DNA from: Clostridia bacterium
Lineage (GTDB): Bacteria > Bacillota > Clostridia > Christensenellales > Borkfalkiaceae
Direction: 5' to 3'
Length of the DNA: 44,472 nt
NCBI GenBank assembly: GCA_028720205.1
Contig: JAQYLE010000018.1
Span: 1 to 44,472, forward strand
The notes beneath the pieces were generated by a model that saw only the letters and a list, made by a program, of their open reading frames with translations, made no database searches and was not told where the DNA came from. Made by a program: the position numbers and the translations under genes. Shown piece by piece: positions 1,600 through 14,068 of the stretch. The first letter of the stretch is position 1. Every line of letters begins with the position of its first letter.

Positions 1600-4548
1600 T
1601 TATTCCGCGTCCGTCGTTTTCGTAAACATACGGTAGAACAGCGAGAACAAAACGATATTAAACAGATACGCTACGGGAATTACAACGTAAGAGAGCAGTT
1701 CGGGTACGGAACGCAGATCGGCTTTTAAGTATACGGCAACCATCGAGGCGAGCACGGTTACAATCACGAACAGCACGCAGGCCGTTAAAATGCAGCCGCT
1801 TTTTTTGCTTCTCCGCACGCGCGGTTTATAGCCGCCCGCATACAGTATGGTGCAGATTAAAAACGTAAGGAATCCGCCCGAAAAAGCAACGAAGGGATAT
1901 AACCCGTTTACGTTCAGTCTGTCTTTAAAAAAGAAAATCGAAAGACTTTCCGCAAGAACGATACAAAAGATAACGAACGCCGTTTTAAAAAGCGTTTTTC
2001 CCTTGTTGAAAAAGCCGTTCGCGCCGCGCGTCGCGTTTGCGTTCTGCGCGCCGTACGCAGAGGAAGCATAAAACGCATTTTCAGGTTTGTCTTGTCGGTT
2101 TTCCGGCGCTTTGCCGTTTTGCAAAAATTGCGCGCCGCCGCTTGTGCGGAGCCTGATTCCGTCCGCCTGCGCGCGTTCGTTCAACAGCGAAAAATCGTAA
2201 GCGCTTTGTTTGTTTTCGGCTGTAAAGGACTGCCGTTGCGCAACGTTCGCCTGCGCGTCGGAAGGACGGTTAGCCGCATAGGCGGAATCGTACGCGGGGG
2301 GAGCGCCCGTAAGAGAGGCGTATTCCGCGGAGATACGCGCGGCGTTGAATTGTCTGCGCGCCTCGTTCAAAGCCGTTTCTCTGCCTTCCAGTTCGTATTC
2401 CTTATCTTTCATCGCGGCTTCGCGGCGGGTAAGGTTAGCCGCCTGTTCGCGTACGGCGGCAATCGTCTGCGCCGTTTCTTCTTCCTGCTTCGTTTTTTCC
2501 GCTTCGTAGGTTTCTTTTTCTTTTTGCCACAGCGCCTTTTCGGTGAGGTACGATTGTTTTTCCTCGTCGAACAAGCGGCGCTCTTCCGCCCAGGCGGCGC
2601 GTTCGGCGTTAAATTTCTGTAAATCGCTGTTGAACGATTTCAGATCGGCGTTGTATGCGCCTATTTTATCGGCATAGTCGAATTGTTGCGAGGAGAATTC
2701 GCCGCGCCGCGCCATAAACGCCGACTGTTCGTTTTTCAACGTTTCTTCACGCCGCGAAAGTTCGTTTTCGCGCTCGTCCAGAGCGGATTGCGTATCGTGT
2801 ACTTCCTCCTGTTTTCTGCAAAGAAGCGCCTCTCTTCCCGCCAGCGATTCGCGCGTTTGCGCAATTTCTTCTTCGCGCTGAGCGAGGGCGGCTTCCCGTG
2901 CGGAAAATCCGGCGTTTTTTTCTTCGAGTTCTTTTTCTTTTATCGAAAAATCGTATTCGCGTTCGGTAAATTCGTATTTTTCCTTTTCAAACGCCGAACG
3001 GGTTTCTTCCCATTGCCGTTTCGCCTCGTCGAACGCGGCTTTATCCGCTTCGAATTTTTCGCGTTCTTCGTTTAAATCGCTTTCGGCGCGTTGCAGGGCG
3101 GCTTCCCGTTCTTCCACGTTCTGCGCGGTTTCCGCCACTTTGTTTTCGGAAGATTTCATCAGCGCGGTAAGATTTTGCACCGTTGCCTCGCGTTCGGCAA
3201 GTTCCGCTTCCTTTATTTGCAGTTCATGCTTTTCTTCTTCTATTTTGTTTAACGCCTCGGCGAGTTCCTGCCGCTTGGTTTCGGTTTCTTCTTCCGCTTT
3301 CGTCTGCGCTAAAATCGCGGAAGCGAGTTCGCTTTGCTTTTCCTGCAATTCGTTTTCTTTTTCGGCAAGTTCGGCTTTCGTAGCGTCCAGATCTTCCTGT
3401 AAACGGTTAATCTTCGCTTCTTTAACGAGTAATTCCGCGCGCGCGGAAGTCAGATTAACGTCCAGCCCGTTAATCGCCGCCTGTTTGTCGTTAATCTCTT
3501 GCCGTAAAGAAGAAATGCGATCGACAAGTTCGGCGTGTTCCGCGCCGAGTTTTTCCGATTCCGAACGCGCGGCTACGCTGTCGGCGCGGTTTGATTCCAG
3601 AGCGGATTCCGCTTCCGCAAGCCGCGCTTGCTTGTCGTTCAGTTCCGCGCGCGTCTGTTCGAGTTCTTCCGAGTTTTTTAAAAGTTCCGCGCGTTTTTCT
3701 TCCAGCGCCTCCCTGGCTTCGTCGAGCGAAGCGGAAAGGGCGGAGATTTTTTCCTCGCCGCCGTCGGCGGCAATTTTCAGTTCGGCGACGCGGCTTTGCA
3801 AACGCTGCGTTTCGCGGCTCTGCGCTTCCGTATCTTCGCGCAGCCTTTCGAGTTGCGCGCGATTGGCAAGCAGTTCGCTCTGTTGATTCGCTATCTCGCT
3901 TTCCTTGTCGGCAAGGGCGCTTTCCAATTGCGCGATTTTGTCCTTTAAATCCGCGTAATCCGATTTTTGCGAAGAAAGCGCGGAGGACTGTACGGAGAGC
4001 AAAGAGCGCTGGCGTTCCAGTTCGCTCTGCAATTTTTTCAGCGAATTTTTTTCTTCGGAAAGCGCCGCTTCGCGCGCGGAAAGATTGCGCCTGATATCTT
4101 CCAGTTCCTTTTGCTTTTCGGTGAGGAACGAAAAATCGAAGTGCTTGTCGCCGTCGGCAATCAGACTGTCGATAATCGTACGCGAATACTCCCATTCGGA
4201 AAGGGATTTTCGCACGAATTCTCTGCCTTCTTCCGTAAGGCGGAAATACTTCCGTCTGCCGCCGTTCGAATATTCGCCGTAATACGAGGCGACGTAATGC
4301 AGCGATTCCAGGCGTTTCAGCGCGCTGTAAAGCGTGGGTTGCTTAATGGAATACAATCCGCCCGTTTTATTTTCTATTTCGCTTATAATATCGTAGCCGT
4401 ATTTGTCGCCGTCGTATAAACTGCGTAAAATAATGGTATTGATATGCCCCCGGATCAGATCGGAACTGATCGACATTCCTTCTTCGCCGCCCGTAATCGT
4501 TTCGAAATCTTCGTTTTCATTTTCCGAAACGTCTTTGTAGTCAGCCAT
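1600..4548 (-). CDS. Membrane-anchored PadR-type regulator with ~600-residue coiled coil, 982 aa
   Basis: Residues about 25-125 form a PadR-type winged helix (ISSDLIRGHINTIILRSLYD, then QPTLYSALKRLE and GGRRKYFRLTEEG). Residues about 143-735 are an almost uninterrupted heptad-rich coiled coil made of Ala, Glu, Arg, Lys, Leu and Gln, with recurring AREAAL, LAEREA and ELEEKR segments. A low-complexity linker follows, then four hydrophobic helices at about 855-874, 884-904, 918-941 and 951-974. The Arg/Lys-rich loop KPRVRRSKKS lies between helices 2 and 3, which puts both termini in the cytoplasm by the positive-inside rule. The design is a DNA-binding head held on a long rod to the membrane. 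PadR proteins are normally 100-200 residues, so the rod and anchor are unusual. Upstream lie TATGTCTG repeats that probably serve autoregulation. Neither ligand nor targets are known. Confidence 0.85.
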   Translation of the reverse strand: MADYKDVSENENEDFETITGGEEGMSISSDLIRGHINTIILRSLYDGDKYGYDIISEIENKTGGLYSIKQPTLYSALKRLESLHYVASYYGEYSNGGRRKYFRLTEEGREFVRKSLSEWEYSRTIIDSLIADGDKHFDFSFLTEKQKELEDIRRNLSAREAALSEEKNSLKKLQSELERQRSLLSVQSSALSSQKSDYADLKDKIAQLESALADKESEIANQQSELLANRAQLERLREDTEAQSRETQRLQSRVAELKIAADGGEEKISALSASLDEAREALEEKRAELLKNSEELEQTRAELNDKQARLAEAESALESNRADSVAARSESEKLGAEHAELVDRISSLRQEINDKQAAINGLDVNLTSARAELLVKEAKINRLQEDLDATKAELAEKENELQEKQSELASAILAQTKAEEETETKRQELAEALNKIEEEKHELQIKEAELAEREATVQNLTALMKSSENKVAETAQNVEEREAALQRAESDLNEEREKFEADKAAFDEAKRQWEETRSAFEKEKYEFTEREYDFSIKEKELEEKNAGFSAREAALAQREEEIAQTRESLAGREALLCRKQEEVHDTQSALDERENELSRREETLKNEQSAFMARRGEFSSQQFDYADKIGAYNADLKSFNSDLQKFNAERAAWAEERRLFDEEKQSYLTEKALWQKEKETYEAEKTKQEEETAQTIAAVREQAANLTRREAAMKDKEYELEGRETALNEARRQFNAARISAEYASLTGAPPAYDSAYAANRPSDAQANVAQRQSFTAENKQSAYDFSLLNERAQADGIRLRTSGGAQFLQNGKAPENRQDKPENAFYASSAYGAQNANATRGANGFFNKGKTLFKTAFVIFCIVLAESLSIFFFKDRLNVNGLYPFVAFSGGFLTFLICTILYAGGYKPRVRRSKKSGCILTACVLFVIVTVLASMVAVYLKADLRSVPELLSYVVIPVAYLFNIVLFSLFYRMFTKTTDAE

Positions 4549-4606
4549 CGTCGTATCTCCTTAATTTGTATAGGTTATATGCCCGTATAAGTGTCCGTAT
4601 CGGTAA

Positions 4607-4752
4607 TATGTCTGCCATAATACCTATGTCTGACGTAGTATGTCAGGCATAAAATAGCGTAAAAAGCGAGAAAATCGTTTAAAAGTACTATGTCTGTCAT
4701 AATTATTATGTCTGGCGAAGTACTTTTCGGTGAAAATACAATTATGACATAA
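4607..4752. promoter_or_regulatory. Array of TATGTCTG operator-like repeats upstream of the PadR-type gene
   Basis: TATGTCTGNC occurs four times in direct orientation, at 4607, 4625, 4689 and 4707, in two pairs each spaced exactly 18 bases. Two copies are small palindromes of form TATG-N5-CATA (4607-4619 and 4689-4701). TATGTCTGAC at 4625 also faces GTCAGGCATA at 4642-4651 as a near-perfect inverted repeat. The second pair is framed by AAAAGTACT (4681-4689) and AGTACTTTT (4719-4727). A further palindrome TTATG-A-CATAA lies at 4742-4752. ATGT/ACAT half sites are typical of PadR operators. The array overlaps the predicted promoter of the regulator gene, so negative autoregulation is the likely role. 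Confidence 0.75.
4617..4646 (-). promoter_or_regulatory. Predicted promoter of the PadR-type gene
   Basis: On the minus strand CTGACA (4641-4646) and TATTAT (4617-4622) are separated by 18 bases. Both boxes are built from the TATGTCTG repeats, so a bound PadR protein would block RNA polymerase. Confidence 0.5.
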
Positions 4753-4876
4753 ATAGTATATCATAACAAAAAGTAATTGTCAATAAAACGAACCGAAAAA
4801 TGGCTTAAAACAGGGCGAAAATTATAAAAAATCGCGCGAAAAAACGGTAAAAACGCCTTATTTATGCGCAACCGAC

Positions 4877-4914: not shown

Positions 4915-5691
4915 ATGGAACGATACAGGCACGAAGAAACGTTTAAACTCGGTTTCCGCGACGTGGATTTTAAAGACGAACTGAAAGTTTCGTCGTTGCT
5001 TTCGTATTTCGAAACGGCCGCTTCGAACAGCGCGGAAGAACTCGGCTTCGGGTATACGTATTTAAAAGAGCACGGCTACGCCTTTTTTCTTTGCGATATT
5101 CGCTGTATCTTGTATAAAAGCGCTATGCTCGGCGATATCATGCGCGTCGTCACATGGCCCACGCCGCCTTCTTTTGCCGTATTCGGGCGCGAATTCGAAG
5201 GGTACGATAAAAGCGGCGAAAAAGCGCTTGCGGCAACTTCGCGCTGGTGCGCCGTAAATTTTTCTTCGGGCAAAATTTTAACGGCGAAAGCCTTTCCGGA
5301 GCAGGATTATACGAACGATACGATTTACGATCCGCAAAAATCGGGCGTACCTTTCGTAAAAACGTTGAAATTTTTACCGGAAGAGGGGGTTTTGCGTTAT
5401 TCGCTCACCGTTGCCAATTCCGAATACGATCATAACATGCACGTGAACAATACGCGCTACGCCGATTATTGCCTGAATTGTTTTACCGCGTCGGAACTTG
5501 CGCGGCGGCGACCGGAAAGTTTTTCCGTCTCGTACGTAAAGCAGTGCCGCGAGGGCGACGAACTGCGTTTTTACAGAAAGGACGAAGAGGGCGGCGTTAC
5601 GCGGATATGCGGTTTCAATCAGTCGGGCGAAAACGTGGTGCGCGCGGAATTTTCGTTTGCGTCGCGCGATGAAAGCGGTATTTCTCCATGA
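4915..5691 (+). CDS. Acyl-ACP thioesterase, 258 aa
   Basis: This enzyme hydrolyses acyl-ACP to release free fatty acid from type II fatty acid synthesis in the cytoplasm. The sequence is a double hotdog protein of the bacterial FatA/FatB-like family. The N-terminal half opens with YRHEETFKLGFRDVDFKDEL and an FETAASNSAEELGFG helix. The C-terminal half carries the catalytic signature YDHNMHVNNTRYADY with Asp172, Asn174 and His176. The length fits the family. It is the first gene of a seven-gene run. Its start codon abuts a consensus promoter and lacks a ribosome binding site. Its stop overlaps the next start in ATGA. Confidence 0.88.
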   Translation: MERYRHEETFKLGFRDVDFKDELKVSSLLSYFETAASNSAEELGFGYTYLKEHGYAFFLCDIRCILYKSAMLGDIMRVVTWPTPPSFAVFGREFEGYDKSGEKALAATSRWCAVNFSSGKILTAKAFPEQDYTNDTIYDPQKSGVPFVKTLKFLPEEGVLRYSLTVANSEYDHNMHVNNTRYADYCLNCFTASELARRRPESFSVSYVKQCREGDELRFYRKDEEGGVTRICGFNQSGENVVRAEFSFASRDESGISP

Positions 5692-6956
5692 GGAAGAACG
5701 GCGTCAACCGAACCTTCGAACCTGTTGCGGAAGGCGAAATATGCGTGGACGGGTTTGTGCCCTGTTCGAATTTTTTTCAAGGGGCGAGTCGAAGCGGAAA
5801 CGCGTTTTCCGCGGCGGAGCGGCGGGAAGAGGCCGCGCTGTCGCTTCTCGGTTTATCCGACGTTCTGTTTTGTCGCTCGCCTGCCGCGGCGGCGTTTATC
5901 ACGGGCGGCAACGCGTTTTTCCCCTGTTTGCACGAGGCGTCGAAAACGGCGGCGTTAAAAGACAGAGCGAAGGCCGCGATTTTTTTCGACGGAAGAGAAA
6001 GCCCGTTTTCTTCAAGGGAAAAAGCGGCGTGCGAAAAGTTGTTGAAGGACATATTTTTTTCGCTGAGAATCGGGCGCAACGAAATTATTTCCTTCACGTG
6101 CGACGGCGCCGCTTCGCAAAAAGTCGCGCGTTCGTATACCTTCCGTATCGGCGATTATTCCTGCAGGCTTTGCTGCGTGATGCGTTGTGCCGCAAAAGAG
6201 GGCTCGGCGGTAAAATACAGGCAGTTTTTATTGCTGACCGACGCGAAAATTTCCGCGCCCATGTTGCAGAGAATGCTGAAATCGCTATCGTCGGATCCGT
6301 TGCATTTCGCCGACGAAACGGCGGGAGGGCGCGCGTTCGACGCCGCGGCGTTTTTATCCAGCGCCCGCGCGGAAAATTATCTTATTTCCGCGCCCGACGG
6401 CGAATACGCAAAAACAATGCGGCTGATTCGTTCGATTTTTTACGATTTTCTGCTTTACGCGGCAAAACAGACGGGGGAACGGCTGGTAAAAATCCGCGTT
6501 TCCGGGGCGAAATCCGCGCAGGAGGCAAGCGGCGTCGCGCTGGCGTTCGTACGAAGGCGCGCCGTATACGAGGAGATAAAAAAACGACGGCTTTCTCCGC
6601 TTTTTGTACTGGAATGCGTCGGCGCGGCGGGGGAACGTAACCGCGCGGGCGTTACGGCGGAACTATCTTCGTCGGCGGGAAAAGTATGCCTCGTGTTCGA
6701 AGGAACTTTGCTGTCGCCCCCCGAAGAGACGACGGAGGCGATTTTGTCGGCGGACGACGCGGAATTGTCGGTGGAATTATTATCGGGCAATTATTCGTAT
6801 TCGGCGTGTATGTACGTTCCGTGCGAAAGCGCGGAAGAGGACGGCGCAAAACTCAGACGGGGCGATATCGCGCGGGAAGAATGCGAGGCGGTAAGCCGGG
6901 AGAAAGAAAAAACGCCGGATAACGCCGGAACGACGATTACGCAAAAACAGACGTAA
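5688..6956 (+). CDS. Degenerate ArgJ-like protein (ornithine acetyltransferase fold), catalytic nucleophile absent, 422 aa
   Basis: Three stretches align by eye with ArgJ, the glutamate N-acetyltransferase of arginine synthesis. Around residues 57-140, SDVLFCRSPAAAAFITGGNA through EIISFTCDG matches the ArgJ FTTN to STGVIG half. Residues 183-193 (LTDAKISAPML) match the TDAxIxxxxLQ block after the self-cleavage site. Residues 266-286 (LVKIRVSGAKSAQEASGVAL) match the EVxVxGAxxxxEA block. Overall length is close to ArgJ. The autocleavage segment that should contain the nucleophilic Thr (MATML in ArgJ) reads KYRQFLL at 176-182, and the VDGDTSTND motif is absent. It probably cannot process itself or transfer acetyl groups. 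The start overlaps the thioesterase stop. Homology rests on visual alignment only. Confidence 0.55.
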   Translation: MRKNGVNRTFEPVAEGEICVDGFVPCSNFFQGASRSGNAFSAAERREEAALSLLGLSDVLFCRSPAAAAFITGGNAFFPCLHEASKTAALKDRAKAAIFFDGRESPFSSREKAACEKLLKDIFFSLRIGRNEIISFTCDGAASQKVARSYTFRIGDYSCRLCCVMRCAAKEGSAVKYRQFLLLTDAKISAPMLQRMLKSLSSDPLHFADETAGGRAFDAAAFLSSARAENYLISAPDGEYAKTMRLIRSIFYDFLLYAAKQTGERLVKIRVSGAKSAQEASGVALAFVRRRAVYEEIKKRRLSPLFVLECVGAAGERNRAGVTAELSSSAGKVCLVFEGTLLSPPEETTEAILSADDAELSVELLSGNYSYSACMYVPCESAEEDGAKLRRGDIAREECEAVSREKEKTPDNAGTTITQKQT

Positions 6957-12328: not shown

Positions 12329-14068
12329 TCATCTTTTTATGCAGAATTTGTACATCTTCGCCAGTAAATTATCGGGAATTCTTTCTCTGTACTGACCGAG
12401 ATAAATAAATACTTTACGGAAGAATTCGTCGTTATCGCCGCCAACCACATAGTCGGGAAGGTTCTTCATAACGCCCTGATATTTCAGAATAAACAGGTCG
12501 GTGAATTGCTCTCTCTCTTTCTCGTTCAACGAAGCGATAAACGGATCGAAACTCCTGGTATTGTAATAATCGTACGAAGCGGTTGCCGACGGGGCGGGCG
12601 TTGCCGCGGCGTTAGCATAAGGCGTTGCGGTTGTTCTTGCCGTATCGTTTGTATTTGCGGCAGACGCAACTGGTATAATCGTAGGCGCGGGCGTTTCTTC
12701 CAATTCTTCGCCGTCGTCGCGGAACGAGGAGAAGTTAGGTATAACAAGTTGCTCTTCTTCTTCGATTTCCGCGGGAGCGGGGGCGGCTTCGTTTACCTGA
12801 GCCGAGGTTATCCATGCCGCCGCAGGCGTCTGAGCGGGAACGGCTTCTTCCGGCGCGACTTTTTCTTCCGCAACGGCTTCCGTCGTTGATTCGGCGGCTT
12901 TGCCGTCGTCTGCTTCCTCCGCCTGCGTTTCTTCCGCTTCTTCGGTTTCCTCGTCGTCCTCTTCGTCGAGATAAGCGGCCTCTTTTGCTTTAATCACCTT
13001 TTTGGCGATGATGCAGATCACCGTCTGAATCAACGCGACGCCCGCCGCGGCGACGGCAAACCATTTCAGATCGGCGAACGCCTCTTTTTCATTGAAAGAT
13101 TTGGTAAAAGGCATATCGAAGAAACAGGGATATAAGATTATCAAAGCCAGAACCAAGTGCAGGCAATAGCGGAAAATATCGAATCCGTAACCCTTTTTGG
13201 AAGAAAGACGAATTACCGAAATCAGAATTGCAAGCGCGTACAGAACCGTAACGCCGCGTACGACGTACATCAGCGCTTTGCCCCAGGTGAAAGCACCGGC
13301 GATAACGTCGTCAACGTTGTACCAGGCGAGAAGTTGCGCTCTTAAATCGTATTTGAAAATAGCGAAAACGTACGAGCCTACGAACGCGAGCGTAAGAATC
13401 AGCAACACAAGCGGCAGAGTAATTTTACCTTTGCGTTTGCCGACGGTATAAGCCGCGAAGAACAGCACGCCCGCCCCGGCGCAGGAAAGAACGACGACGT
13501 CGTATACGAGTTTACCGCCGCCAAATACCGAAGAAAGGAACAGCGTTAAAATCGCATAACCGCCGAACAACAGCATATCCGTAAAGGAGATGGCGCGTAC
13601 CATTGCGGGAGCGTGTTTGCCCGAACAAACGCCTACGATCATAAAAACGATATTCAGCAAAAATACCGCGGGAAACGCGTATATAAACCAACTGAACGCC
13701 TTTCCGTAATTGCCCGCGGCGTTCAGCAGGGGAATACCGTGAAACGCATACGAACCCACGTTTGCGGGCGCGGAAAGCCCTGCCGCGGCATACACTTCTG
13801 CTACGCCGTTCTGTTTAAAAACGTTCATAAACACTTTAAGAAGCGTTACTTCGTTGTTGAAAACGTACTTTCCGCTATAAAGAAACAGCGAAACGGGTAA
13901 AAAGCACATCAGCGCGATAGGCGCAAGAGCGAGAAGCACCGTAAGAATACGGCTGAACACACGCTTTTTGGGGGCGGGCGTTTCCGCTTCGTCGTTTGCG
14001 ATCGCTTCCAACTCTTCCTGCGTTAAAGCGTCTACGTCAACTTCTTTTTCGGGGTAATTTTTACTCAT
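12329..14068 (-). CDS. Unrecognised polytopic membrane protein with acidic linker and conserved-looking C-terminal domain, 579 aa
   Basis: I do not recognise the family. A cytoplasmic N-terminus (about 38 residues, acidic then PKKR) leads into about eight hydrophobic helices between residues 40 and 362. Then comes a long low-complexity segment (about 370-505), first Glu/Asp/Ala rich (DEEDDEETEEAEE), then Ala/Thr/Pro rich. The last 75 residues are compact and rich in aromatic and charged residues (FDPFIASLNEKEREQFTDLF, LPDYVVGGDNDEFFRKVF, YLGQYRERIPDNLL). This tail looks like a folded cytosolic domain, displayed on a flexible arm from a membrane base. AGGAG precedes the ATG by about eleven bases, and a consensus promoter lies at 14199-14227. 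Confidence 0.7.
   Translation of the reverse strand: MSKNYPEKEVDVDALTQEELEAIANDEAETPAPKKRVFSRILTVLLALAPIALMCFLPVSLFLYSGKYVFNNEVTLLKVFMNVFKQNGVAEVYAAAGLSAPANVGSYAFHGIPLLNAAGNYGKAFSWFIYAFPAVFLLNIVFMIVGVCSGKHAPAMVRAISFTDMLLFGGYAILTLFLSSVFGGGKLVYDVVVLSCAGAGVLFFAAYTVGKRKGKITLPLVLLILTLAFVGSYVFAIFKYDLRAQLLAWYNVDDVIAGAFTWGKALMYVVRGVTVLYALAILISVIRLSSKKGYGFDIFRYCLHLVLALIILYPCFFDMPFTKSFNEKEAFADLKWFAVAAAGVALIQTVICIIAKKVIKAKEAAYLDEEDDEETEEAEETQAEEADDGKAAESTTEAVAEEKVAPEEAVPAQTPAAAWITSAQVNEAAPAPAEIEEEEQLVIPNFSSFRDDGEELEETPAPTIIPVASAANTNDTARTTATPYANAAATPAPSATASYDYYNTRSFDPFIASLNEKEREQFTDLFILKYQGVMKNLPDYVVGGDNDEFFRKVFIYLGQYRERIPDNLLAKMYKFCIKR

Follow-up and report, generated by a model that had tools for sequence, protein, structure and literature searches.

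What would a PadR-type regulator do at the end of a rod several hundred residues long, and why should it carry a membrane anchor? The question is raised by a gene in the window, which is the whole of contig C18 (44,472 nucleotides) in the draft genome of a gut bacterium of the order Christensenellales, Clostridia (1.94 Mb in 82 contigs, 96% complete). PadR/LmrR regulators are soluble dimers of ~100–200 aa, whereas this protein, here called PadR-TM, adds ~870 residues that join the head to the membrane. Because the gene and its matching sites gather at the replication terminus and the protein spans from a DNA head to the membrane, it probably ties the terminus to the membrane. On balance, the best-supported reading is that PadR-TM is a dedicated DNA–membrane anchor for the terminus region.

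Architecture of PadR-TM

The following features of the gene can be distinguished.

1600–4548, minus strand: PadR-TM open reading frame (PadR head, coiled-coil rod and four-TM anchor), 982 aa, ATG start, uninterrupted
4210–4431, minus strand: PadR winged-helix domain, LmrR-like, residues 40–113 (Pfam PadR, E 2.8e-16)
2335–4134, minus strand: coiled-coil rod, free of proline, residues 139–738 (heptad power, shuffles, AlphaFold2 helices)
2005–2334, minus strand: low-confidence, probably flexible linker, residues 739–848 (pLDDT mostly <50)
2137–2184, minus strand: conserved juxtamembrane motif around ERAQ-DGIRL, within the linker, residues 789–804
1621–2004, minus strand: predicted four-TM anchor domain, residues 849–976 (pLDDT 88)
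1927–1983, 1837–1893, 1738–1794 and 1639–1695, minus strand: predicted TM segments of the anchor, residues 856–874, 886–904, 919–937 and 952–970

The first-pass annotation of this DNA had proposed a PadR-type head at the N-terminus, and both sequence and structure comparisons agree. The PadR domain (PF03551) scores over the Pfam cut-off, and a Foldseek search with the full-length model matched the head to PadR/LmrR structures at 48% identity (1xma and 9qbc; Cth-833 and Brachyspira PadR). All 35 PadR-TM heads tested with Pfam score as PadR. PadR-TM is the sole PadR-domain match in the window genome, and the same is true of G053, a genome from another family. Many genomes of the window's genus possess a second, ordinary short PadR gene (~105–130 aa), which is absent from the window genome. 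At 982 aa and with four predicted TM helices, the window protein departs from the usual PadR format, which is small and soluble and ends in a short dimerization helix.

The near-continuous heptads that had been described between residues 143 and 735 were borne out as well. COILS-type scoring assigns coiled coil to residues 139–565, 578–611 and 631–738, and covers 94% of residues 143–735 as against 61% in composition-preserving shuffles; the absolute probabilities are rough. Across the 593 residues of the rod, hydrophobicity gives a sharp and phase-coherent power peak at period 3.5, and the protein contains no proline from residue 72 to 749. AlphaFold2 places helices at residues 140–324, 333–469 and 477–747, with modest confidence (mean pLDDT 62). 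At 0.1485 nm per residue, 593 residues give an estimated rod length of ~88 nm, in line with the 85–90 nm calculated earlier. Most of the rod is variable in sequence, apart from a strongly conserved island, Q-QFD[FY]ADK, at residues ~597–640 (window positions 2629–2760), which is possibly a partner-binding site.

Between rod and anchor lie ~110 residues (739–848) that were missing from the first description. This linker contains Pro, Asn and Ala and is modeled with low confidence. Within its motif, R792 and A793 are invariant, and G797, I798, L800 and G804 are nearly so.

Four hydrophobic helices with both ends of the protein in the cytoplasm had also been proposed, and TM prediction and the loop sequence support this topology: the TM2–TM3 loop is basic (RVRRSKK), and the N- and C-termini are therefore predicted to lie inside. 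Structure prediction folds the C-terminal four-TM domain at pLDDT 88, while searches of Pfam and the PDB returned no credible family match and no fold match, respectively. We rejected an identity as a HAAS/DUF1129 domain, as DUF1129 scores below its cut-off and generic TM families score similarly; by Pfam, the window protein lacks a HAAS domain (DUF1700/DUF1129).

Conservation of the fusion and its neighborhood

A fusion of this kind could be produced by an assembly error that joins two genes, as the first-pass annotation had cautioned. The reading frame is uninterrupted, and the same fusion is present in ~28 further assemblies of the window's genus (836–1198 aa where complete), which excludes an artefact of assembly. 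The anchor is likewise retained in relatives, with four TM helices at the end of nearly all long proteins examined and a few scoring three by a simple threshold. Across the order, a profile of the head matched 146 of 198 genomes at E ≤ 1e-15, some of these matches being short PadR proteins, and in many families the head is followed by a frame of 350–1,000 aa. One member of the window's own family (G081, 98% complete) gave no head match, and a class-wide sample outside the order gave no long-frame match at the strict threshold of 1e-42.

Conservation does not extend to the rod. Among the proteins examined, the long coiled coil is confined to the window's genus, within which its length varies widely; seven proteins from other families have little or no coiled coil and other linkers, and keep the head and the anchor. 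What is conserved, in the majority of the families sampled in the order, is therefore the idea of a head plus an anchor, and the rod is a genus-level solution for building a spacer. For the same reasons, a reach of 85–90 nm, correct as a computed length for this one protein, is not an essential feature of the system. Nor is rod length locked to the heptad, as distances between conserved landmarks follow no modulo-7 pattern.

In the window's genus, PadR-TM is accompanied by acyl-ACP thioesterase, argJ, carA and carB. Elsewhere, the genes are most often arranged as mutL-miaA-ynbB-lexA-xer-PadR-TM-(DedA)-rnhA-proC. The recombinase that stands next to PadR-TM in many families scores best as XerS, below the cut-off, and the ancestral neighbor of PadR-TM is an XerS-like recombinase. 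A conserved terminus neighborhood comprising the XerS-like tyrosine recombinase, LexA, MutL, MiaA and a YnbB-like protein together with PadR-TM is seen in other families at L036, L038, L193, L197–L205 and L209.

A palindrome at the PadR-TM promoter

Alignment of the spacer between PadR-TM and the divergent thioesterase gene revealed a palindrome, TATGTCWGACATA, whose copies lie downstream of the conserved promoter. It belongs to the ATGT..ACAT type of palindrome that PadR proteins use. The elements of this region in the window are as follows.

4557–4562, minus strand: ribosome-binding site AAGGAG, from sequence
4607–4619, no strand assigned: candidate palindrome copy TATGTCTGCCATA, one mismatch to TATGTCWGACATA
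4625–4637, no strand assigned: candidate palindrome copy TATGTCTGACGTA, one mismatch to TATGTCWGACATA
4639–4651, no strand assigned: candidate palindrome copy TATGTCAGGCATA, one mismatch to TATGTCWGACATA
4689–4701, no strand assigned: candidate palindrome copy TATGTCTGTCATA, one mismatch to TATGTCWGACATA
4755–4783, minus strand: predicted promoter TTGACA-N17-TATACT (genus form TTGACA ... TATAAT)
4915–5691, plus strand: divergent acyl-ACP thioesterase gene, a neighbor kept in the genus, L034 and L191; context only, outside the proposed machine

TATGTCWGACATA occurs in the promoter or leader of the gene in most members of the window's genus, in two sister genera and in another family. It sits directly upstream of the −35 box in G144 and G203 (both from a sister genus) and in G053 (other family), and in the 1.8 Mb of G053 the only exact copy is the one at the PadR-TM promoter. 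Related half-sites are found at the corresponding promoter position in families f27 and f28. With one site in its own promoter or leader, PadR-TM probably sets its own level too. The earlier suggestion that the protein acts as a regulator in addition to a tether is thus plausible for autoregulation only.

Searches with a stricter 17-base form found three matches in the window against 0.01 expected. When up to three mismatches were allowed, genomes contained 9–19 sites compared to 0–3 for reversed-pattern controls; at up to two mismatches, nine further genomes yielded 63 sites and the controls none. Of 41 genomes in the window's genus, 31 contain double sites spaced 18 bases apart, and the control gave no hit. 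Tandem TATGN5CATA palindromes with the same 18-base spacing occur in the glgD|glgA, coaE|glgB and miaA|ynbB intergenic regions of the genus (L115, L116, L127 and L136); their centers vary (TCWGA, TCACG), and the preferred spacer is ATACC.

The motif was recognized only in the window gene's family and in parts of families f18 and f31. For four other families that keep PadR-TM, de novo palindrome searches gave no convincing counterpart. A candidate in f24, GCATANTATGC, is enriched in G148, where 12 of its 20 copies lie on the PadR-TM contig (C5), and was set aside when this clustering was not replicated in four relatives. We also discounted exact matches within the TIGR00275 flavoprotein gene, because a conserved PMSDI peptide explains them, and regard the exact matches in G041, G054 and G055 as coding coincidences.

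Such palindromes could in principle belong to a dispersed intergenic repeat, or be the target of another factor, and gather near the terminus by chance, with a separate role for PadR-TM. The tandem arrays with several center variants in the window's genus are what one would expect of repeats. However, several genera and a second family all carry a site in the promoter or leader of this one gene; where only a single copy exists, as in G053, it is found there; and sites also fall inside coding sequence with no long repeat unit around them. We therefore consider this reading very unlikely.

The location of the sites bears on their function. Some lie between genes, often a few bases past a stop codon, while others are hundreds of bases deep in open reading frames. 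These internal sites are more in keeping with a mark on the chromosome than with an operator, and argue against a simple operon regulator. A more elaborate version, to which we assign a low probability, is that PadR-TM is a membrane-tethered transcription regulator that senses envelope state and controls nearby genes, among them those for the acyl-ACP thioesterase, glg and ynbB. It would do so either as a single protein equivalent to the HAAS-PadR dyad that has been proposed, or in the manner of CadC/ToxR. Sites upstream of glgA, glgB, a ynbB-like gene and PadR-TM itself in the window's genus are consistent with this, as are the conserved divergent thioesterase and the published proposal of HAAS-PadR membrane signaling (PMC11237479). 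That dyad also connects a wHTH of the PadR kind with the membrane, but does so with two proteins and a HAAS domain, whereas PadR-TM is one fused protein that has no HAAS domain and matches DUF1129 only below threshold in its TM part. Furthermore, many sites are within reading frames or just past stop codons between co-directional genes, and the putative targets change between genomes while the clustering at the terminus stays. For the sensing of membrane state, which the first-pass annotation had also raised, we found no evidence.

Sites and gene at the replication terminus

Sites matching the palindrome cluster with the gene. With the promoter site excluded, the contig that carries the gene holds 46 of 68 sites in five genomes (P 3e-21, with 12.8 expected) and 22 of 54 double sites in the window's genus (3.4 expected, P 1.5e-15); counted per genome, 13 of 21 genomes of the genus have double sites on the gene's contig against 2.7 expected. 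The trend is weaker in ten further genomes of the family and order (4 of 25 vs 1.0 expected, P 0.017). The P values for the five genomes and for the window's genus overstate the significance because sites and genomes were treated as independent and genome sizes were rounded. Clustering was measured per contig in fragmented assemblies, and the genomes are related and hence not independent.

Longer contigs allow the cluster to be placed on the chromosome. A switch of GC skew and coding strand from plus to minus is the signature of a replication terminus. On an 824-kb contig of G213, all 11 sites fall within 549–772 kb, the gene is at 548 kb, and the change of skew and coding strand from plus to minus comes at ~600–625 kb. 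G071 has its switch at 164–184 kb, its gene at 160.5 kb and the majority of its sites in the surrounding region. Coarse sampling in four more families located the switch at 210–260 kb in G211 (gene at 249), 250–310 kb in G102 (gene at 283), 110–160 kb in G148 (gene at 143) and 105–160 kb in G161 (gene at 67, i.e. ~40–90 kb from the switch interval). The only genome of the window's genus that was sampled, G034, was covered in part, with plus skew at 5–22 kb, minus skew from 108 kb and the gene at 134 kb. The PadR-TM gene is thus located at or near the terminus in six sampled families, and the sites are located there in two genomes.

A de novo palindrome search of the first 300 kb of G071, its terminus domain, ranked the PadR-TM palindrome first, in the form TTATG-N5-CATAA (15 copies vs 1.3 expected; score 23 vs 7.6 for the best null), and this palindrome was missing from the top palindromes of the distal part at 304–476 kb. 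Searches for dif with a Firmicutes consensus and with a difSL-like consensus gave nothing above chance in the sequence covered.

A terminus gene with terminus sites also brings to mind a replication fork trap. The RTP-ter system of Bacillus subtilis comprises a winged-helix protein whose gene is at the terminus, a site in its own promoter and further sites around the terminus (PMC10331603). As a counterpart of RTP-ter or Tus-Ter, PadR-TM would be an autoregulated winged-helix dimer on polar terminus sites that allow replication forks to enter but not to leave, with the anchor secondary. The gene at the terminus with a promoter site, as described for tus and rtp (PMC10331603), fits this well. 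In two sister genera, g26 and g28, the near-symmetric sites gain from their outer bases an orientation that agrees in 30 of 37 neighboring pairs, a polarity that a simple tether does not need; six of seven orientation flips there are from F to R, and the flip in G213 falls at the skew switch. The double sites of the window's genus, with a better and a poorer match 18 bases apart, are reminiscent of the B and A sites of RTP, and one of the 35 heads weakly matches Pfam RTP (PF02334, E 0.0058). On the other hand, all 35 heads are PadR rather than RTP, the core site is a symmetric palindrome, and a fork trap needs neither a four-TM anchor nor a linker of hundreds of residues. As polarity is absent in G071, is inconsistent in the window's genus, where both spacer orientations stand side by side, and could instead track gene orientation, we rank the fork trap second and consider it unlikely. 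The membrane-coupled regulator and the dispersed repeat rank below it.

For the membrane anchor that we favor, the following mechanism can be envisaged. The PadR head, presumably dimeric like LmrR, would bind a palindrome of 13–17 bases, (ACT)ATGTCWGACAT(AGT), of which a genome has ~2–20 copies, gathered mainly within a few hundred kb of the terminus. The rod, replaced by a different linker outside the genus, would bridge the head to the membrane, in which the four TM helices would fix the protein, and the terminus region would thereby be held at the envelope. Such holding may plausibly coordinate the last stage of segregation with division and Xer recombination. The chromosome–membrane tether of the first-pass annotation has thus gained independent support from the position of the gene at the terminus, the clustered palindromes, the promoter site and a head and anchor kept across the order; that the membrane-bound protein binds DNA is a step that we infer.

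Several known proteins resemble parts of this scheme. RacA of Bacillus subtilis possesses an HTH head and a coiled coil and tethers a chromosome region through ram sites that are dispersed and dense in one region (PMC6593407). By anatomy, PadR-TM shares with RacA an N-terminal HTH head, a coiled coil and attachment to the membrane; however, RacA reaches the membrane via DivIVA, and the density of ram sites is highest close to the origin, whereas PadR-TM has four predicted TM helices and sites at the terminus. RocS of Streptococcus pneumoniae combines a DNA-binding domain, a coiled coil and C-terminal membrane attachment in a single protein (PMC11500499). Its attachment is by an amphipathic helix rather than four TM helices, and the likeness is again one of anatomy. 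We know of no terminus-clustered sites for RocS.

In site distribution, the resemblance is to MatP-matS of Escherichia coli, in which ~13-base palindromes restricted to the terminus are bound and tied to division and the envelope (PMC6538776, PMC7394560); contact between MatP and lipid membranes has also been reported (PMC6538776). The likeness is functional only, as both sets of palindromic sites concentrate at the terminus; MatP is without a TM anchor, whereas PadR-TM has four TM helices, and Pfam gave no MatP match to the window protein. The matS site is GTGACRNYGTCAC, to which the palindrome of PadR-TM is unrelated. To our knowledge, there is no established MatP counterpart in Bacillota. 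If PadR-TM is a terminus-specific membrane anchor, it would make the placement of the last-replicated region during division accessible to genetics. It would, moreover, be a case in which a widespread family of small repressors has given rise to a chromosome-organizing machine, whose binding site and map can be read from sequence alone.

RTP-ter shares with PadR-TM a winged helix, a terminus gene, a promoter site and partly polar sites, and differs from it in the PadR head, the symmetric core site, the huge linker and the TM anchor. A broader reading, which we regard as doubtful, would combine these systems: an order-wide terminus system of Bacillota, with an integral membrane protein of PadR descent that keeps arm-oriented palindromes from around the terminus at the envelope and so unites the terminus domain of MatP, the tether of RacA and the polarity and autoregulation of RTP.

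Two further genes of the window deserve mention. A 579-aa open reading frame on the minus strand (12329–14068) has no Pfam match at E 1e-4. Beyond the thioesterase gene, positions 5688–6956 (plus strand) encode an ArgJ-like protein that scores under the Pfam cut-off (E 6.5e-05). Other genes follow it in the window genome and in the same-genus genome G001, in place of the argJ-carA-carB arrangement of relatives, and this ArgJ-like protein therefore looks diverged or degenerate.
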